Origin: Pseudomonadota bacterium
GTDB taxonomy: Bacteria; Pseudomonadota; Alphaproteobacteria; Dongiales; Dongiaceae
Assembly (NCBI GenBank): GCA_016183985.1
Contig: JACPDN010000006.1
Coordinates: forward strand, 310,001-374,000
Reading direction: 5' to 3'
DNA length: 64,000 bases
The notes under the pieces are model-generated. The model was not told the origin of the DNA and searched no databases. It was given only the letters and a program-made list of their open reading frames with translations. Within the stretch, counting starts at the first letter, position 1. The number at the start of each line of letters is the position of its first letter. Positions 39,219-52,388 of this stretch are shown here, one piece after another. Both the position numbers and the translations under genes were made by a program.

Positions 39219-40097
39219 CTACGCCCGCGGTGCTGCGGGTGCTGCGCCGAATGCGGTCGGCGCCTTGATGCCACCAGTGAGGCCATAAATACCGCGCTGG
39301 CCAGGCAGCAGCTGGAACTTGTCCGAGATGCCGAGCACGGTCTCGGCGCCGCCGAGGAAGAGATAGCCGTCCTCCGGCATCTGCTTGGCGATACCGGCCA
39401 GCACCTTCGACTTCGTCGGCTGGTCGAAATAGATGAGCACATTGCGGCAATAGACGATATCGAACTTGCCCAAGGATACCGGATCGTTGAGCAGGTTCCA
39501 CTCGCGATACTGAACCTTGTTGCGGATCGCGTCGGAGAGTTTCCAGCGGTCGCCGGTCTGCTGGAAATACTTCACCAGCAGCGTAATGGGCAGGCCGCGC
39601 TGCACTTCGAATTGCGAGTACATCCCCTCTTTAGCGCGGTTGAGGATCTCCTGCGACAGGTCCGTGCCGACGATGTCGATCTTCCAACCGTTGAGCTGTG
39701 CGCCCATCTCGGAAAGGATCATCGCCAGCGAATAGGCTTCCTGACCCGACGAGCAGGCGGCCGACCAGATACGGATGGTCTTCTGCGCAGCGCGCGCCTT
39801 CAGCAGCGCCGGCAAACAGATCTGCTTGAACTGGTCGAAAGGCTTCGTGTCGCGGAAGAAGAAGGACTCATTCGTGGTCATCGCTTCGACCACGTCGCGG
39901 ATCACCGCTTCGTCATTCTTGGTACGGATAAGGCGCACGAGATCGTCAAAGGTCGCGAGCTTCCATTTGCGCGCGACGGGCAGCAGGCGGCTTTCCAGCA
40001 AGTATGCCTTGTCGTTGGTCAGCAACAGGCCTGACCGGCTCTTCAGGATCTGGCAAATAAAGTCGAAGTCCGTAATCGTCATCGACGGCTGCCTCAT
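39219..40097 (-). CDS. cheR: Chemoreceptor methyltransferase CheR
   Basis: 292 residues. N-terminal CheR domain (ITDFDFICQILKSRSGLLLT; TTNESFFFRDTKPF) and SAM-binding domain (IRIWSAACSSGQEAYSLAMI, FDIVYCRNVLIYFDQPTKSK). It methylates receptor glutamates. Start overlaps the cheB stop by 4 bp. A short Ala/Pro tail follows the domain. Confidence 0.96.
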   Translation of the reverse strand: MRQPSMTITDFDFICQILKSRSGLLLTNDKAYLLESRLLPVARKWKLATFDDLVRLIRTKNDEAVIRDVVEAMTTNESFFFRDTKPFDQFKQICLPALLKARAAQKTIRIWSAACSSGQEAYSLAMILSEMGAQLNGWKIDIVGTDLSQEILNRAKEGMYSQFEVQRGLPITLLVKYFQQTGDRWKLSDAIRNKVQYREWNLLNDPVSLGKFDIVYCRNVLIYFDQPTKSKVLAGIAKQMPEDGYLFLGGAETVLGISDKFQLLPGQRGIYGLTGGIKAPTAFGAAPAAPRA

Positions 40098-41254
40098 GTC
40101 CCGCTGCGGAAGATCGTCTTTTTAACGAACGGGCCGATCTCGGCAAGCGGCAGAACCGCTGAACACAGACCCGCAGTCGCCACGGCGCCGGGCATACCCC
40201 ACACCACGGAACTTGGTTCGTCTTGGGCGATCACCGTTCCCCCAGCATTGATCAGTTCCTGCGCCCCCTTCAATCCATCCTGCCCCATTCCCGTCAGCAT
40301 GACAAACAATGTCTTGGCGCCATAGGCCTTTGCGATGGAACGCAGCATAGGATCGACTGCTGGGCGGCAGAAATTCTCTGGTGGATTTTTGTTGAGACGC
40401 ACGACACGCTGCACCGCCATGCCTTCGACCACCATGTGATAGTCGCCGGGCGCCACATAAATGCGCCCCGGCACGACAGGCTCGCCGTCCTTGGCCTCAG
40501 CCGACGGCATGCCTGCGGCCTGGCCAAGATGTTCGGCAAGGATGGTGGTAAAGGTCGCAGGCATATGCTGCGTTACGAAGACCGGCAAATGAGTGATCTT
40601 GCCGATCGCCTGAAACACTTTGAACAAGGCCTGTGGCCCACCGGTTGACGAACCGATGACAAGACAATCAGGTTTCAACAACGGCGGCATGTCGCGCAGC
40701 TTCACCGGCTGCGCGCCGTAAAGCCGTTTCGGAACCGCCGGCGCGGCAGCACCCGGCTCGCCGGTTGGCGATGGCGCCGCAATGCCGCGCTTGCGGCGAC
40801 CGGCCTGCGCCCAGGATTTTACTTTCTCGACCAGATCGGCCTTGAAATCGGCGGCGGCGGAAATGGCGCCGGTCGTCGTCGGCTTCGGCACATAATCGGA
40901 AGCGCCCAGCGACATCGCCTTCATCGACACCGAGGCGCCTTTCAGCGTAAGCGTCGAGGCCATGATGACGGCGACACCCGGCTTGGTCTGCAACAGGCGC
41001 GGCAATGCCGTCATGCCGTCCATCACCGGCATTTCAATATCAAGAACGATGACTTCGATATCGTTGTCCGGGCGCGCCAGGGCGTCGATCGCCAACTGGC
41101 CATTGCCGACCGTGGTCACCACCTTGATTGTCGGATCGGATTCCAATGCGCGTGTCAGCAAACCGCGAATGACGGCGGAATCATCCACCACCATGACACG
41201 ATACGGTCCGGCTTTGCCACCGGCACCGACTGCTGCCGCTTTGAAGGGTGTCAT
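40094..41254 (-). CDS. cheB: Receptor methylesterase CheB
   Basis: 386 residues. Receiver (RVMVVDDSAVIRG; VIVLDIEMPVMDG) and methylesterase domain with the catalytic Ser in IGSSTGGPQAL, His in FVTQHMPATFT and Asp in MLTGMGQDGL. Linker about residues 150-190. It demethylates receptors opposite CheR. Confidence 0.96.
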   Translation of the reverse strand: MTPFKAAAVGAGGKAGPYRVMVVDDSAVIRGLLTRALESDPTIKVVTTVGNGQLAIDALARPDNDIEVIVLDIEMPVMDGMTALPRLLQTKPGVAVIMASTLTLKGASVSMKAMSLGASDYVPKPTTTGAISAAADFKADLVEKVKSWAQAGRRKRGIAAPSPTGEPGAAAPAVPKRLYGAQPVKLRDMPPLLKPDCLVIGSSTGGPQALFKVFQAIGKITHLPVFVTQHMPATFTTILAEHLGQAAGMPSAEAKDGEPVVPGRIYVAPGDYHMVVEGMAVQRVVRLNKNPPENFCRPAVDPMLRSIAKAYGAKTLFVMLTGMGQDGLKGAQELINAGGTVIAQDEPSSVVWGMPGAVATAGLCSAVLPLAEIGPFVKKTIFRSGT

Positions 41255-41329: not shown

Positions 41330-41695
41330 TCACAACAAACCGACCTGGGAGAACTTCGATTCGATGATCTCACTGTCGAACGGCTTCATGATGTATTCGT
41401 TGGCGCCCGCCGTGATGGCCTCCTGAATGTGCTGGATGTCATTCTCAGTCGTGCAGAACACGACGATCGGCGTTTGACCGCCGTCCATTTTGCGGAGCAG
41501 CCGCAGGAATTCGATCCCGCTCATGACCGGCATGTTCCAGTCCAGCAGGATGGCGTCCGGCATCTCCTTGACGCATTCTTCCATGGCAAGCTTGCCATTT
41601 TCGGCTTCGACGATCTGGAAGTTGAGGCCCTCAAGGATCTTGCGGGCAACCATGCGGACGACTTTTGAATCGTCAACCACGAGGCAAGACTTCAT
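41330..41695 (-). CDS. cheY: Chemotaxis response regulator CheY
   Basis: 121 residues, a lone receiver: VVDDSKVVRM, phospho-Asp52 in ILLDWNMPVMSG, Thr in VFCTTEND and Lys in YIMKPFD. It is placed between cheW and cheB. The upstream 199-bp gap to cheW (41696-41894) shows no gene. Confidence 0.94.
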   Translation of the reverse strand: MKSCLVVDDSKVVRMVARKILEGLNFQIVEAENGKLAMEECVKEMPDAILLDWNMPVMSGIEFLRLLRKMDGGQTPIVVFCTTENDIQHIQEAITAGANEYIMKPFDSEIIESKFSQVGLL

Positions 41696-41894: not shown

Positions 41895-42398
41895 TCAGGC
41901 AACGTCGGACCGCGTCCCGAAATCGAGTAGCGAGCCGACATTCAGGACGACCAGCAGCGAACCATTGAGGCGATAGATGCCGTCGGAGAATTCGCGCAGG
42001 CGCTGGTTAAGGGTCGGCGGATTGCGCTGATAGTCGCGCGAATTGAGGCTCAGCACCTCGCCTACGCTGTCAACCAGCAGGCTGTAGAGCTCACCGTCAT
42101 GCTCGACCACCACTGACATGGCTGCCTTCCCGCCCTCGCGGGTGGGCAGGCCCAGCCTAGGGCGGACATCGATCGCTGTCACAATACGCCCGCGCAGGTT
42201 AAGGCTGCCGGCAACCTCTGGCGGCGCCAGCGGCACGCGCGCGATATTCTGCGGCCCCAGCACGTCCTGGACGGTCAGCACGGGAATGCCAAACATCTGA
42301 TCCCCGATCGACATCGTCACATAATCGCGCTGCTCGCCACTGTTGGCCGAAACAGCCGCGCCGAAATCCGCGCCGGCGCCGTTCTTCATTCCGCTCAT
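41895..42398 (-). CDS. cheW: Chemotaxis coupling protein CheW
   Basis: 167 residues. DYVTMSIGDQMFGIPVLTVQ, SLNLRGRIVTAIDVRPRLGL and YSLLVDSVGEVLSL are typical CheW strands; a 25-residue polar N-terminal extension precedes the domain. It overlaps the cheA stop by 4 bp. Confidence 0.95.
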   Translation of the reverse strand: MSGMKNGAGADFGAAVSANSGEQRDYVTMSIGDQMFGIPVLTVQDVLGPQNIARVPLAPPEVAGSLNLRGRIVTAIDVRPRLGLPTREGGKAAMSVVVEHDGELYSLLVDSVGEVLSLNSRDYQRNPPTLNQRLREFSDGIYRLNGSLLVVLNVGSLLDFGTRSDVA

Positions 42399-45346
42399 GC
42401 GGCACCTCGCACTTCAGAGAGAGCTTCGTTGAGAATATGCACCAGGCCCTCGCGATCGTACTTGGCGACGTAATCGTCGAAGCCAGCCTCGCGACCTTTG
42501 GCCAGTTCCTTCGGACTGGCATGCGACGAAAGGGCGATGATCGGTGTTTGCTGCCAATGACCGCTCTTCTTGATGGCCTCGCAGAAGGCGAAGCCGTCCA
42601 TGCCCGGCATCTCGATATCAGAGATGATGAGGTCAAATTCCTCGCCCGCTTCGGCAAGCTCCATGGCCTTGTCGCCGCTATCCACGGCCGTGACCGAGAA
42701 GCCGGCTGCAGAAAGCTGCGGCGCCAGCAGGTTGCGGAAGAATGCGCTGTCGTCCACCATCAGCAGGCGGCGGGATTTGGCGCCGACCGAATCTTCGCGG
42801 CGCGAGCCGAACCAATCGGCGAAGGCCTGCGACAGGAAGAACCCGGTATCGATGATGTCGGTGGCCTGGCCGGCGATGATGGCCGAACCGATGCGGCCCG
42901 GCGTCTCCGCGGCGAGATCGACATTGAGCTTGGCTTCGACGATGTCGACGATTTCGTCGACCATCAGGCCCATCGAATGTTCGCGATCCGAGAACACCAG
43001 GACCGGCTGGCGACCTTCCTTGTTGCTGACATCCGGGTAGCCTTCCAGCGGCACCAGCGGCATCAGCTGCCCACGATACTGCACGACCAGGCGATCGTTC
43101 GAATGCTCGATCGAATTGCGCTCGATCTCCTCAAGGCGCGCAACGAGCGCCAGCGGCACGGCCTTCGGCGCACCCTGGCCCGCGCGGAACAACAATAGCG
43201 GCACGGCTTCGTCGCCATGCGCCCGGCTCCTGAGCGCCTGTTTTTCGGCGGCATCGGCATCGCCCATGCTGATCTGGCCGGAAGCCGCGGCAATGCCGTT
43301 CGGATCGAGGATCATGATGACGGAGCCGTCGCCCAGGATGGTGTTGCCCGAGAAGACCTCGATATGACGCAGGATCGGGGCCACCGGCTTCACGACGATT
43401 TCTTCCGTGTCGAACACGCGGTCGACCATGATGCCGAACTGATAGGTGCCGACCTGGGTCACGACGATGAAAGTATCGTCACTGCTGCGCTCGGTCTCGG
43501 CTTCGAGGCGTAGCTTCTCGCGCAGGGAAACCAGCGGCAGCAGCTTGTTTCGCAGGCGCAGGATCGGCGTGTCGTTGATGCGCTCGACCTTGAGCTCGCC
43601 GGTCGGCGATGCGCGGACGAGTTCGACCACACTGATCTGCGGAATAGCAAACCGCTCACCAGCGCATTCGACGACCAGGGCCGATACGATGGCCAGCGTC
43701 AGCGGGATCTTGATCGAGAAGGTGGTGCCCTTCCCTTCAACCGAGCGCAGCTCGATCGTGCCGCCAATTTTTTCGATATTGGTGCGCACCACATCCATGC
43801 CGACACCGCGGCCGGAAACGCTGGTCACCTTGGCGGCGGTGGAGAAGCCAGCCTTGAAGATGTATTGCTGGATCTGCTGATCCGACATGCTCTCCAGTTC
43901 GCCTTCGGTGGCGAGGTTGTTCTGGAGAATCTTCGCCTTGATCTTGTCGAGGGCCAGGCCCTTACCGTCATCGACCACTTCGATGATGATATGGCCGCCT
44001 TCATGGTAGGCGTTGAGCGTGATCTTGCCGGTTTCCTGCTTGCCGGCGCGGCGGCGCTCTTCCGGCACTTCGATCGCGTGATCAGCCGAATTGCGCACCA
44101 TATGGGTAAGCGGATCCTTGATCATCTCAAGGACTTGACGGTCGAGTTCCGTTTCCTGGCCGATCATGACCAGGTCGATCTTCTTCTTCAATTCGTGGCT
44201 GAGGTCGCGGATGATGCGCGGCAGCTTGGCCCAGGCATTGCCGATGGGCTGCATGCGCGTCTTCATGACGCCTTCCTGCAGCTCCGACGTGACATGGTTG
44301 AGGCGCTGCAAGGGCGCCGCGAACTCGCTGTCCTTGTGCTTGCGCAAGATCTGCAGAACCTGGTTGCGGGTCAGCACCAATTCGCTGACCATGGTCATCA
44401 GGTTCTCGAGCAGCTCGACATTGACGCGAATGCTTTGGTTGGCGATGGCCGATTCCTTGGTATCGGCATCAGCCGTTTCCTTCTTGGCAGGCGCAGCCTT
44501 GACGGGCTTGGCTTCGACCGGTGCCGGTGCGGCTTCGACGACGGCGGGCGCGCTGCCGGTCGCTTCTTCACGCAAGGCATAGACCATGCCCATGATCATC
44601 GCCGCGATCTGCTGCGGTACTTCCAATGTGTTGAGCGCTGCCTGCAGATGACCGCACAGGGCATCAAACTGGACGTCCGACATCGCCCGACCGGCGATGG
44701 GATGCGGCGCGGTCGTGGCCGGGCCGCCACACATCTGCGCCAGATGGTCGCGCATATAGCCTTGCACATGGTCGATGCTGTCGCCTTCGAACACGGCCTT
44801 CAACCGCAGATCGCCCATGATGCGGTTGAACATTACTTCGACCACGGCATCGATCGTGCCCATGCCGCCGATCTGCTCGTAGATCGAGGCGCCGGACTTC
44901 ACTTCCGCGGCAGCAGGGGCGGCCGGTGCCGGGGCGGGCGCTGCGGCAGCGACAGGTGCTGCGACCTTGCCGCCATCGGCAAAGGCATTGAGGCTCTTGA
45001 TCAGTTCCGAATCATCGCCTTGGGGCTCGGTGCCGCTCGCTTCCAGATCACCCATGATCGAGCGAATGCGGTCGAGGCACGCCAGGATGAGGGTCACCGC
45101 CTGGGCGGTTACTTCCAGCTCGCCGTCGCGCACCTTGCCCAGCACGTTCTCGCCCGCATGCGCCACCGATTCGAGGCGCGGCAGGCCGAGGAAGCCGCAG
45201 GTGCCCTTCACGGTATGCACCAATCGGAAGATGTTCGACAGCAAGTCGATATCGTTGGGATTTTGTTCGAGCTTCACGAGCTCGACATCGAGTACGGCGA
45301 GATTCTCGTTGGTTTCGGTCAGAAACTCGCTCAACAGATCGTCCAT
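42395..45346 (-). CDS. cheA: Hybrid chemotaxis kinase CheA with embedded truncated-globin domain
   Basis: 983 residues. Domains: HPt (1-105, phospho-His44 in RLVHTVKGTCGFLG); Ala/Pro linker; a group-1 truncated-hemoglobin-like domain (about 152-262) where P2 would lie; linker; dimerisation helices (300-365); HATPase (370-550; LTHMVRNSADHAIE, VVDDGKGL, SGRGVGMDVV); CheW-like P5 (552-690); a second CheW-like domain (712-845); C-terminal receiver (860-980; LLMVDDSAFFRN, LIISDIEMPGMDG). Standard CheA is about 650-750 residues. The globin region begins SIYEQIGGMGTIDAVV and contains RLKAVFEG and QMCGGP. First gene of cheA-W-Y-B-R. Confidence 0.95.
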   Translation of the reverse strand: MDDLLSEFLTETNENLAVLDVELVKLEQNPNDIDLLSNIFRLVHTVKGTCGFLGLPRLESVAHAGENVLGKVRDGELEVTAQAVTLILACLDRIRSIMGDLEASGTEPQGDDSELIKSLNAFADGGKVAAPVAAAAPAPAPAAPAAAEVKSGASIYEQIGGMGTIDAVVEVMFNRIMGDLRLKAVFEGDSIDHVQGYMRDHLAQMCGGPATTAPHPIAGRAMSDVQFDALCGHLQAALNTLEVPQQIAAMIMGMVYALREEATGSAPAVVEAAPAPVEAKPVKAAPAKKETADADTKESAIANQSIRVNVELLENLMTMVSELVLTRNQVLQILRKHKDSEFAAPLQRLNHVTSELQEGVMKTRMQPIGNAWAKLPRIIRDLSHELKKKIDLVMIGQETELDRQVLEMIKDPLTHMVRNSADHAIEVPEERRRAGKQETGKITLNAYHEGGHIIIEVVDDGKGLALDKIKAKILQNNLATEGELESMSDQQIQQYIFKAGFSTAAKVTSVSGRGVGMDVVRTNIEKIGGTIELRSVEGKGTTFSIKIPLTLAIVSALVVECAGERFAIPQISVVELVRASPTGELKVERINDTPILRLRNKLLPLVSLREKLRLEAETERSSDDTFIVVTQVGTYQFGIMVDRVFDTEEIVVKPVAPILRHIEVFSGNTILGDGSVIMILDPNGIAAASGQISMGDADAAEKQALRSRAHGDEAVPLLLFRAGQGAPKAVPLALVARLEEIERNSIEHSNDRLVVQYRGQLMPLVPLEGYPDVSNKEGRQPVLVFSDREHSMGLMVDEIVDIVEAKLNVDLAAETPGRIGSAIIAGQATDIIDTGFFLSQAFADWFGSRREDSVGAKSRRLLMVDDSAFFRNLLAPQLSAAGFSVTAVDSGDKAMELAEAGEEFDLIISDIEMPGMDGFAFCEAIKKSGHWQQTPIIALSSHASPKELAKGREAGFDDYVAKYDREGLVHILNEALSEVRGAA
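44561..44893 (-). other. Truncated-hemoglobin-like domain inside CheA
   Basis: CheA residues 152-262. SIYEQIGG, AVV, RLKAVFEG, LAQMCGGP, FDALCGHL and VPQQIAAMI follow the trHb group-1 order from helix A to H. The B10 position appears to be Phe173 rather than Tyr. His215 lies next to the usual proximal-ligand position, depending on gap placement; His193 and His201 are other candidates. Heme binding is therefore plausible but not proven by sequence. Confidence 0.8.
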
Positions 45347-45546: not shown

Positions 45547-46176
45547 TTAATGGATGCGGAAAGCCAGGCGGCCACCGCCGTTCTGAGCGATGTCGATCCT
45601 CATCCGCAGCCGCGTTGCCAACAGGCCCGTAAGATAGGCCAGGACATTGCGCGCATCGAGGGCCGCTGTGCCCGAATCGCCCGTCAGCAGGCTCTTGTGA
45701 TCGTCGGCAAAAACGATCTGGGCTCCTTCGGCGGTGATGGTGAAACGGGCGGCCTCGCCCTCCCCCTCGATGCTCAAGGCCAAATCGCCACCGCGCGGCA
45801 GGGTTTCCGAAAGCAGGATGATACCGACCAGCAGTAATTTGGACCAGCCGGCCGGCAGATCGCCAGGCGACATCGCCGGCACACCGGAGAGCGTCACGCG
45901 CCCGCCGTCCAGGAAATCGCGCGCCAGCTTGATCGCCTCGCCGAAGCCGAAGCTCGCCTGGTTGCCGGCATTCCCCAATGCGCAGCGATAGGCCTGGAGC
46001 AGGATCGAGGCACGCCGCGCCGACCTTGCCGCCAGCGCGCGCGCTTCCGCCACCAATTCCGGATCCTGCTCGTCCTCCAGCAATTCCAACCCGTTATTGA
46101 CCGCGCCGATCGGACTGATCAGGTCATGGCACAGGCGCGAGCAAGTCAGTTCGAGGACGGCGAGGTCAATTTTCAT
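45547..46176 (-). CDS. chpT: Histidine phosphotransferase ChpT
   Basis: 209 residues. LELTCSRLCHDLISPIGAVN carries the phospho-acceptor His17 and NNGLELLED; the second half is a degenerate HATPase fold (LLLVGIILLSETLPRGG). ChpT shuttles phosphate from the hybrid kinase CckA to CtrA and CpdR. cckA is not in the window. Position upstream of cheA in the same direction is notable. Confidence 0.92.
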   Translation of the reverse strand: MKIDLAVLELTCSRLCHDLISPIGAVNNGLELLEDEQDPELVAEARALAARSARRASILLQAYRCALGNAGNQASFGFGEAIKLARDFLDGGRVTLSGVPAMSPGDLPAGWSKLLLVGIILLSETLPRGGDLALSIEGEGEAARFTITAEGAQIVFADDHKSLLTGDSGTAALDARNVLAYLTGLLATRLRMRIDIAQNGGGRLAFRIH

Positions 46177-49660: not shown

Positions 49661-50053
49661 TTACATCGCCAGGATGCCGAGCGGATCGTGCGCCAAGGCG
49701 ACCGAGATGATGAACCCGAAGACGACCAATGCCGCAAGCCAGCAGCAGACGCGCACGGTCTTGGTGCGCGCCTTCCAGAATGAAAAGAAGCCGAGAACAA
49801 TGTAGACGACGAGCAGGATCACTTTCACGGTGAGCCACATGTCGACGAACGGATATTGCTGAATGATCGTGGTCAACATAAGGGCAGCGGTCAGCAGTAC
49901 CGTATCGATCGTATAGCTTGCCCAGCGAATGGGGGCCGCCATGACCCAGTCATAGCCCAGGTTCAGGAACAGCCCGCGCAATGCGAACAAACTGCCGCTC
50001 ATCAGTACAGCCGTGACATGCACCAGCTTGATTTGCTCATAGAACTCTATCAT
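49661..50053 (-). CDS. SirB2 family membrane protein
   Basis: 130 residues, four membrane segments. FYEQIKLVHVTAVLMSGSLF, RWASYTIDTVLLTAALMLTT and VKVILLVVYIVLGFFSFW follow the SirB2 family. ATG 50053 is chosen since the longer frame (to 50113) would overlap the end of the NO reductase gene. Immediately downstream of norZ, so probably co-transcribed. Confidence 0.82.
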   Translation of the reverse strand: MIEFYEQIKLVHVTAVLMSGSLFALRGLFLNLGYDWVMAAPIRWASYTIDTVLLTAALMLTTIIQQYPFVDMWLTVKVILLVVYIVLGFFSFWKARTKTVRVCCWLAALVVFGFIISVALAHDPLGILAM

Positions 50054-50072
50054 CAGCGCCGCGACGGAATGT

Positions 50073-52388
50073 TTATCGATGCGTGCCGCGCGAAGCTGCT
50101 TGCATGTCTTCACGGCGCTCCGCTTCCAGCGCCCGCACCTCGTCCTCGCGGCGCGGAAAGACCCAGAGACCGATAACGAAGACCGCTAGTGCAAGTGCGC
50201 CGATGGAGAAAATCGTGTCTCCTGGCACACGCATCCAAACCAGCAGTTCGACAATCGGCTGCTGCATGAAGGCTTCAGAGCGCGCATACCAATATCCATG
50301 CTCGAGCGCCGCGAAAAGCTGCAGCGTCCCAAGCGGCAGAAGCGTAAAGAGCGCCATCATCGCAAGACCAATGTTGAGACACCAGAAGCTCACCTTGAGG
50401 ATATTCTCATGCCAGGCCAAGTAAGGCTTCATCCCGCGCAGGCAAAACAGGACGAGACCAATGCCCAGCATGCCGTAGACACCGAACAAGGCCGTATGGC
50501 CATGCAGCGGCGTGAGATTAAGGCCCTGCATGTAGTACAAGGATAATGGCGGATTGACGAGGAAGCCGAAAAGCCCCGCACCGACAAGATTCCAAAATGC
50601 CACCGAGATGAAGAACATGACGGGCCAGCGATAGCGGCGGACCCAACTGGCAGCCGTCCCCAGTTTCCAGGTGTGGTAGGCTTCAAACCCGATATAGGCG
50701 AGTGGAACCACCTCCAACGCGGAGAAGCTTGCCCCCAGCGCCAGAACGGCGATCGGCGTGCCGGCAAAATAGAGGTGGTGAAGTGTGCCAAGGACGCCGC
50801 CCGCCATGAATATGATGGTCGCGAACAGCACCGCCGTCGTGGCCGTCCGTATCTGAAGAAGCCCAAGCCGCGTGAAGAGGAATGCAATCACGGCTGTGGC
50901 GAATACTTCGAAGAATCCTTCGACCCAAAGATGAACCAGCCACCAGCGCCAGTATTCGACCATGGAAAGCGACGTTCTCTCGCCCCACAGCAGGGCCGCG
51001 GCGAAGAAGACGCCAATGGCCACTGTCGAGAGGAATAGCAGGCCGACGATCGATCGCGCCTCCGAATTCCCACGCAATGTGGGCCAGAGGGCCCGGCCGA
51101 CCAGGAACAGCCACAGCATCAGGCCGATAAACAGGAATATCTGCCAGAAACGGCCCATATCCGCGTATTCCCAGCCCTGATGGCCGAACCAGAAATTATA
51201 GTCCAGGCCAAGCCGCTGCATCACCGCCAGCCATTGGCCGGCAAAAGACCCGACAACGATGATGAGCAGGCAGATCCAGAGAAAATTCACCCCGAGGCGT
51301 TGATAGGGAGGTTCGTAGCCCGAGATTGCCGGCGCGATATAGAGGCCCGTACCAAGCCACGCCACAGCTATCCAAAGGACCGCCAATTGGGTGTGCCAGG
51401 TGCGCGTAATCGAATATGGAAGGATCTGCGCCAATTCAAATCCATAAACATTCTGCCCTTCCACCTGATAATGCGCGGTCATCGCACCAAACAGAATCTG
51501 GACGATGAAGAGAGCGAGCAGAACCCAGAAGTACTTCGCCGTCGCCAACATCGACGGGGTGGCCCGGATATGCCGCATCGGATCGATTTCAGGGATGCGG
51601 TGAGGCTCTTCGCCGCGGCCATGCGTCACTGCATGATGCCATCCCAACAAGCCAATTCCAGCCAGCAGGAATGTGACGCTGAACGCCGACCACAGGAACG
51701 TGCTTGCCGGCGGCCGGTTGCCAATCAGCGGTTCATTGGGCCAGTTGTTGGTATAGGTGATATCGCTACCCGGGCGATCTGTCGAGGCAGCCCAGGCCGT
51801 CCACCAGAAAAACGCCGAGAGGACACGACGATGCTCCGGGTCGGGCACCGTGCCATTCCTCATCGCGTAGTTTTCGCGCAGTTCGGCCAATGCGGGATCG
51901 TCACCAAAGAGGCTGTCATAATGCGCCGAGACGACAGAGATGGCCGCGGCTCGCTCTGGACTAAGCGTGATCGTCTTGGTGGCTGAATCAAACGTGTTTT
52001 GCCGCGTGCGTTCGCGCACGCGGCCTTCGATCAGCGCCTTTTGTTCTGCCGTAAGTGATGCGTAATCGGGTGCACTGAAGTCGCTCTTGGCCCAACCGTC
52101 GAGCTGAGCAACGAGTTCGCGGTGGAGCCAGTCGGCCGACCAGTCAGGTGCGACATAACCGCCATGGCCCCAGATCGAGCCAAGCTGCATGCCGCCGATC
52201 GACTGCCATACCCGGCGCCCTTCCTCGATATCGGCGCGCGAATAAATGACGTCGCCGTTGGTGGAGACAACCTGCTCCGGCATTGGCGGCGCTTCCTGGT
52301 AGATTTCATATCCGGCCCATAGCAGGACGCCAAATGATACGATCAGCAGAGTAGCCAGGGTGATCCACAGCTTCCGAGTGCTTGTCAT
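50073..52388 (-). CDS. norZ: Quinol-dependent nitric oxide reductase (qNOR)
   Basis: 771 residues. An N-terminal membrane anchor and soluble domain (SNxGDVIYSRADIEEGRRVW type), then about 12 membrane helices of the heme-copper superfamily with metal-site His residues in WHTQLAVLWIAVAW, LVHLWVEGFFEVFATA, TLHHLYFAGTP and LTPLHGHTALFGVYG. The fused single chain lacking a c-heme motif is the quinol type. It reduces NO to N2O in the inner membrane. Confidence 0.95.
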   Translation of the reverse strand: MTSTRKLWITLATLLIVSFGVLLWAGYEIYQEAPPMPEQVVSTNGDVIYSRADIEEGRRVWQSIGGMQLGSIWGHGGYVAPDWSADWLHRELVAQLDGWAKSDFSAPDYASLTAEQKALIEGRVRERTRQNTFDSATKTITLSPERAAAISVVSAHYDSLFGDDPALAELRENYAMRNGTVPDPEHRRVLSAFFWWTAWAASTDRPGSDITYTNNWPNEPLIGNRPPASTFLWSAFSVTFLLAGIGLLGWHHAVTHGRGEEPHRIPEIDPMRHIRATPSMLATAKYFWVLLALFIVQILFGAMTAHYQVEGQNVYGFELAQILPYSITRTWHTQLAVLWIAVAWLGTGLYIAPAISGYEPPYQRLGVNFLWICLLIIVVGSFAGQWLAVMQRLGLDYNFWFGHQGWEYADMGRFWQIFLFIGLMLWLFLVGRALWPTLRGNSEARSIVGLLFLSTVAIGVFFAAALLWGERTSLSMVEYWRWWLVHLWVEGFFEVFATAVIAFLFTRLGLLQIRTATTAVLFATIIFMAGGVLGTLHHLYFAGTPIAVLALGASFSALEVVPLAYIGFEAYHTWKLGTAASWVRRYRWPVMFFISVAFWNLVGAGLFGFLVNPPLSLYYMQGLNLTPLHGHTALFGVYGMLGIGLVLFCLRGMKPYLAWHENILKVSFWCLNIGLAMMALFTLLPLGTLQLFAALEHGYWYARSEAFMQQPIVELLVWMRVPGDTIFSIGALALAVFVIGLWVFPRREDEVRALEAERREDMQAASRGTHR

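Follow-up and report, generated by a model that had tools for sequence, protein, structure and literature searches.

A group-1 truncated-globin domain, probably haem-free, within the chemotaxis kinase CheA of a Dongia-like alphaproteobacterium

A globin domain between the HPt and dimerisation domains of CheA

We analysed a stretch of 64,000 nucleotides from a Dongiaceae genome (GCA_016183985.1, contig JACPDN010000006.1, positions 310,001 to 374,000; hereafter the window), in which a gene on the minus strand encodes a CheA chemotaxis kinase with a globin-type domain between its HPt and dimerisation domains. The features of this CheA, in window coordinates, are as follows.

42395..45346, minus strand: cheA (HPt – globin – dimerisation – HATPase – CheW – CheW – receiver; 983 aa); open reading frame (ORF) and Pfam
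45059..45340, minus strand: HPt (P1), residues 3-96; Pfam
44894..45031, minus strand: Ala/Pro-rich linker A, residues 106-151; sequence
44555..44893, minus strand: group-1 truncated-globin-like domain, residues 152-264; Pfam, model and structure matches
44828..44830, minus strand: Phe173, distal position B10; alignment
44753..44755, minus strand: Met198, distal position E11; alignment
44678..44731, minus strand: shortened EF-to-G segment, residues 206-223; coil in the model
44702..44704, minus strand: His215, candidate proximal ligand, shifted; alignment
44441..44554, minus strand: second Ala/Pro-rich linker, residues 265-302; sequence
44258..44440, minus strand: dimerisation domain (P3; H-kinase_dim), residues 303-363; Pfam
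43697..44116, minus strand: HATPase (P4; HATPase_c), residues 411-550; Pfam
43289..43681, minus strand: first CheW-like domain (P5), residues 556-686; Pfam
42797..43201, minus strand: second CheW-like stretch, residues ~716-850, limits inferred; Pfam counts two CheW stretches
42437..42763, minus strand: receiver domain, residues 862-970; Pfam

Pfam detects all components of a CheA kinase, namely an HPt domain with its phosphorylatable His, H-kinase_dim, HATPase_c and CheW, and the HPt histidine (His44) is unchanged in all 23 aligned CheAs. The kinase is of the flagellar type and comes from a Dongia-like alphaproteobacterium; its architecture, together with the F5 label that Magnetospirillum cheOp1 carries in the accessible text of PMC12442639, suggests that it belongs to class F5.

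The globin-type domain inside this CheA was confirmed at the level of both sequence and predicted structure. Pfam Bac_globin (PF01152) matches residues 154-262 with E=7.7e-10 and 39.4 bits against a curated cut-off of 21, and among sequences of solved structures the best matches are group-1 truncated haemoglobins, with HbN first (E=6.1e-13). Our CheA-globin profile also finds Chlamydomonas THB1 and cyanoglobin (E ~1e-35). Protoglobin (PF11563) is not among the eight Pfam families that match the window CheA at E up to 1. An AlphaFold2 model of the domain, built from 33 sequences, reached a predicted local distance difference test score (pLDDT) of 92.6 and a predicted template modelling score (pTM) of 0.86; Foldseek and VIA-align both rank group-1 truncated haemoglobins top for this model, which superposes on HbN at 1.5-1.7 Å over 114-116 residues and has the 2/2 globin fold of that group. 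The modelled helices are A, B, C, E, G and H (letters assigned by us), with none at residues 206-223. In line with this, an earlier sequence-only reading of the window, which had placed a group-1 truncated globin between the HPt and dimerisation domains and called for structure prediction and comparison with truncated haemoglobins, is borne out by Pfam, the model and the structure matches.

Altered haem site in the window genus

The haem site was analysed in an alignment of 36 CheA linker globins, two globins nested in P5, two fused to methyl-accepting chemotaxis proteins (MCPs), one fused to CheW, and 39 free globins encoded at the retrieved loci. Positions B10, E7, E11 and F8 follow the HbN numbering, checked by counting along the HbN sequence. 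The 39 free globins serve as controls and lie in non-CheA ORFs of <250 aa whose match spans 112 residues or more; they come from loci picked by their match to the CheA-globin profiles and do not sample free globins at random. A further five or more globins from longer non-CheA ORFs (L061, L069/L102, L081, L107 and L143) stand outside this count, and by eye these also have His at the F8 place.

His F8 is present in all 39 free globins but in only 20 of the 36 linker globins, and likewise Tyr B10 (34/39 versus 13/36) and Gln E11 (33/39 versus 11/36) are less frequent in the linker. The three residues occur jointly in eight linker globins (G008, G011, G106, G138, G241a, G210, G319 and G405) as well as in both P5-nested and both MCP-fused globins. 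Ten of the 36 linker globins have no His at all in the EF-to-G segment, compared to none of the free globins. Linker globins with His F8 have Tyr B10 in 13 of 19 cases and those without it in 0 of 16 (one row lacked a B10 residue), corresponding to a Fisher p=1.9e-5 that is inflated because the sequences share ancestry.

All seven genomes of the window genus lack His in the F8 column. The spacing from the GGx motif to F8 is four residues in each of them, compared to 11 in 39/39 free globins, and the distance from GGx to the conserved helix-G Phe, a robust count because it is independent of gap placement, is 17 residues in all seven; the 39 free globins have 21-25 there and the remaining 29 linker globins 23-26. 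On the distal side, B10 is Phe in 7/7, as had been proposed for the window (Phe173), and E11 is Met in six genomes and Thr in one; the distal residues of the window protein are all apolar (Phe173 at B10, Val194 at E7 and Met198 at E11). Phe CD1, Phe186 in the window, is kept throughout the genus. The window globin hence has neither the proximal His F8 on an F helix nor the distal Tyr B10 with Gln E7/E11 that characterise group-1 globins.

The sequence-only reading had considered a haem-bearing kinase with His215 as a possible proximal ligand. For the window protein, neither idea is supported: the EF-F region is shortened, the model lacks an F helix and apolar residues occupy the distal positions, and His215 is shifted, its position holding His in four genomes of the genus and Asn in two (G002 and G003) and being missing in one (G004). 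The alternative of a haem-free globin fold is favoured instead, as sequence and model both lack the customary geometry of haem ligands; the docking of CheY/CheB proposed with it is a possible role. As a general idea, a haem sensor inside CheA is unlikely for the window protein, yet looks plausible for other family members, eight of 36 of which have the full triad. The linker globin of G138 matches cyanoglobin with E=1.2e-31 and an aligned His F8, and judging by their residues, G138-like linker globins are likely to bind haem; direct gas control of the kinase in these relatives is a fair hypothesis.

Distribution of CheA globins and absence of P2

A globin is present in CheA in 16 of the 17 genomes of the window's order, and 16 positions are invariant among 15 aligned globin domains of the order. 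In the exception, G007, the best CheA is 561 residues long, has a single CheW domain and lacks both receiver and globin. Among 385 alphaproteobacterial genomes drawn evenly, at least 19 have a globin in a CheA ORF, called by Pfam or by the profile plus a CheA-core match. The window CheA core is strongly matched in 135 of the 385, of which at least 18 carry the globin; the 19th globin-CheA genome, G210, has a CheA broken by a contig end and lies outside the 135. These genome counts are lower bounds, since the first pass scored only some candidates per genome. Altogether, 36 linker globins were collected from 35 genomes, so that the search for the same architecture in other CheAs, which had been suggested along with the initial observation, was successful; two of the 36 (G401 and G379) are incomplete, and contig ends truncate the CheAs of several others.

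Over 74 CheA cores, the globin profile gives either at least 67 bits or no match at E up to 1. The linker globins of L089, L091 and L094 fall below Pfam Bac_globin at E 1e-4 and are called only by our own profile. Among the matches listed for 398 Pseudomonadota genomes, no globin lies in an ORF >616 aa except that of the window, at an E limit of 1e-18 that may miss divergent CheA globins; the 616-aa globin ORF (L143) has no CheA-core match.

The globin had been thought to replace the P2 region. P2 is not among the eight Pfam families matched by the window CheA, and none of eight globin-less CheAs with two CheW domains and a receiver has a P2/CheY-binding match at E up to 0.01, profile-profile searches not having been run. 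We therefore rejected a replacement of P2: because globin-less CheAs of the same architecture have no P2, the globin was most likely inserted into an already P2-less linker. In the survey of 13,673 CheAs by Berry, Andrianova and Zhulin, which according to its accessible text used the more sensitive profile-profile searches, P2 is absent in more than half. The P1-P3 linkers of globin-less CheAs (e.g., L023, L026, L027; L021, L030) contain short recurring segments such as EVSLDELEAAF and FPVAAELLAE, which might represent linear docking motifs where P2 is missing.

Phylogeny and selection

On trees of the CheA core, the CheAs of the window's order cluster, with support in the Shimodaira–Hasegawa-like approximate likelihood ratio test (SH-aLRT) of 93 on a quick tree and 96/91 on a careful tree, and the window genus is placed among order members that keep His F8. 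Seven relatives from the order retain this residue (G008, G009, G011, G012, G013, G015 and G016), and since the genus nests within that group, its loss of the F8 site looks derived. Both trees require a minimum of five changes in the F8 state. Globin presence changes at least six times on the quick tree (74 rows) and eight times (bootstrap 7-9) on the careful tree (70 rows), which omits four rows with long branches or few columns.

In a globin tree that includes 34 of the linker globins, leaves out the two incomplete ones and is limited in resolution by few columns, 28 of the 34 form one group (SH-aLRT 93), whose first split sets G138, G241a and G106 apart from the rest. Several globin-CheA fusions appear likely from this topology, because the remaining six linker globins fall among free, P5 and CheW globins. 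A single origin by vertical descent is not settled, as gains, losses and transfer are indistinguishable on these trees.

The ratio of nonsynonymous to synonymous substitution (dN/dS) was determined for six sequences of the window genus (15 pairs; G003 was omitted for stop codons). The globin has a median dN/dS of 0.16, indicative of purifying selection, compared to 0.04 for HPt, 0.08 for P3P4, 0.09 for P5, 0.12 for the second CheW region, 0.07 for the receiver, 0.17 for linker A (residues 106-149) and 0.21 for the second linker. The globin is constrained, though loosely.

Globins in other chemosensory proteins

Globins recur among the chemosensory core proteins of this bacterial class, as P5-nested, CheW-fused and MCP-fused cases were found besides the linker globins. 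Two CheAs (L099:2854-6453, plus strand, G074; L088:2-2620, minus strand, G096) have two globins, the second of which is nested at the same place in the CheW-like P5 and has Tyr B10, Gln E11 and His F8; a model of the L099 P5 with its nested globin, from two sequences only, has a pLDDT of 45 and was set aside. In G391, a CheW (L095:1979-3184, plus strand) carries a C-terminal truncated globin lacking His F8, and the CheA fetched from this genome (L172) has no globin match. A PAS-MCP receptor of G300 (L104:4464-7328, plus strand) has an N-terminal truncated globin with Tyr B10, Gln E7/E11 and His F8; a near-identical N-terminal globin in a partial ORF (L073, G208) was placed alongside it, no domain scan having been run. 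In G241, a bin with 10% contamination, a second CheA (L094) has a very eroded linker globin (no His F8, Asn B10) beside the complete L105. A 319-aa ORF of G379 (L146:2176-3132, plus strand) contains a shortened globin resembling the CheA linker globins and may reflect a decayed CheA or a misassembly.

Gene neighbourhood

The genes around cheA in the window, together with a nitric oxide reductase gene nearby, are the following.

41895..42398, minus strand: cheW, overlaps the cheA end; ORF and domain scan
41330..41695, minus strand: cheY; domain scan
40094..41254, minus strand: cheB; domain scan
39219..40097, minus strand: cheR; domain scan
45547..46176, minus strand: ChpT-like histidine phosphotransferase (Pfam HPTransfase), upstream of cheA; domain scan
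49661-52388, minus strand: nitric oxide reductase (NorB with a cytochrome c-like domain), adjoins a SirB-family gene

The genes cheW, cheY, cheB and cheR lie downstream of cheA on the same strand, with ctrA and fliI close by (FliI was named by its sequence, without a domain scan). All seven relatives examined have fliI, ctrA, cheRBYWA and chpT around CheA. In none of them was norB detected beside CheA (E 1e-20), with the expected place only partly covered in three (G005, G006 and G010), so that a functional link to nitric oxide reductase, whose gene the sequence-only reading had noted 5 kb away without claiming such a link, finds no support in gene order. Oxygen sensing has other candidates in the window genome, as it encodes two protoglobin-MCP receptors of the HemAT type, L195 (C13:134539-134994) and L196 (C2:135713-136189).

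Discussion

The window globin shares the 2/2 fold, the GG motifs and Phe CD1 with group-1 truncated haemoglobins (HbN, cyanoglobin; PF01152), but it sits in a kinase, has neither His F8 nor a modelled F helix, and has replaced the distal Tyr and Gln. Fusions of 2/2 globins to other domains, e.g., a protein kinase, are described for multidomain truncated haemoglobins, with CheA not named in the accessible text (PMC7082302). Likewise, the P2-less CheAs with a C-terminal receiver described by Berry et al. have the same core domains as the window CheA, which differs from them by the globin in its HPt-dimerisation linker; among auxiliary domains, that survey devotes a section to P2, receiver and CheC/CheX, and neither globin nor heme turned up when its main text was searched for these terms. 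Our literature search, which covered few subscription papers, yielded no report of a CheA with a globin. HemAT and other globin-coupled receptors (PF11563 with an MCP) also have a globin in a chemotaxis protein, but from another globin family and with the sensor in the receptor rather than the kinase. The window globin, in whose sequence the haem ligands are absent, might be comparable to haem-free sensor globins of the RsbR type, which represent a different globin subtype with a different partner domain. The RsbR stressosome proteins combine haem-binding and haem-free siblings in one signalling scaffold, as the CheA family probably does; their B. subtilis clade is non-haem, whereas the Vibrio clade has the ligands for haem (accessible text of PMC4976288).

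Based on sequence and model, we consider it reasonably probable (about 0.6) that the window globin is a haem-free, derived module of a once haem-binding gas sensor built into the kinase. According to this model, the linker joining the HPt and dimerisation domains acquired a group-1 truncated globin by insertion, and because relatives keep a complete pocket, the ancestral module would have bound haem, with O2 or NO acting directly on the kinase. In the window genus, the proximal side of the pocket would then have been shortened and the distal ligand-stabilising residues replaced, which would leave the domain most likely haem-free, still folded as modelled, and under purifying selection as suggested by dN/dS. 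At present, it would most likely serve the HPt tether as a rigid module for protein binding that places HPt or binds a partner, for instance CheY, CheB or the C-terminal receiver.

Several observations weigh against this model. A His within the shortened loop persists in four of the seven genomes, Phe CD1 is retained and the pocket positions are still apolar, so that from the sequence haem may be held by an unusual ligation; AlphaFold2 itself does not model haem. A window domain still able to bind haem in this way, with His215 or one of the Met residues (e.g., Met198) as ligand, so that O2 or NO gates the kinase, would also agree with the close fit to HbN and with nearest structures that include HbN with Phe B10 and Val E11, variants which still hold haem. 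We nevertheless regard it as unlikely, given a loop of 17 residues where all free globins have at least 21, the lack of a modelled F helix, the replacement or absence of the His in three of seven close relatives, and the apolar E7, E11 and B10 of the window protein. Moreover, the dN/dS of the globin is similar to that of linker A (0.164 versus 0.167) and exceeds the values of all other measured CheA domains (0.04-0.12), and divergence at synonymous sites is high (pS, the proportion of synonymous differences, ~0.5), which makes the case for a present function only moderate. These values would suit a decaying relic, a folded spacer tolerant of change, as would the repeated changes of the F8 state and the truncated copy in G379; the intact modelled fold, the presence of the domain in nearly the whole order and its invariant positions argue against a relic, which we rate slightly lower again than unusual ligation. 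Least probable, and improbable by any measure, is that the emptied pocket binds another small molecule (a fatty acid, an iron-free tetrapyrrole, a redox or ion signal) and senses a different cue, as could be proposed from apolar pocket residues kept while haem ligands were lost and from the non-haem globin-type domains known in RsbR proteins (PMC4976288).

Beyond the window, we tentatively suggest, at a little under even odds, that several alphaproteobacterial lineages have haem gas sensors in CheA, in the form of a complete linker globin (Tyr B10, Gln E11 and His F8) and, in two genomes, a second one nested in P5, which would let O2 or NO set the output of the whole array without a receptor and whose repeated loss would have produced haem-free globins like that of the window.

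CheA is described as a kinase without a sensor domain that relies on separate receptors (accessible text of PMC10782961). A CheA family with a built-in globin would break this rule and makes it testable. Dongia mobilis, with a deleted F8 site (L031/G005), and Dongia deserti, which kept His F8 (L039/G009), form a natural pair in which one can ask whether haem is bound, whether gases alter the kinase, and what role a haem-free globin has after loss of the sensor. Furthermore, globin-bearing and globin-less kinases show what the HPt tether tolerates, and the surrounding globin-CheA family makes receptor-independent gas sensing by CheA directly testable.

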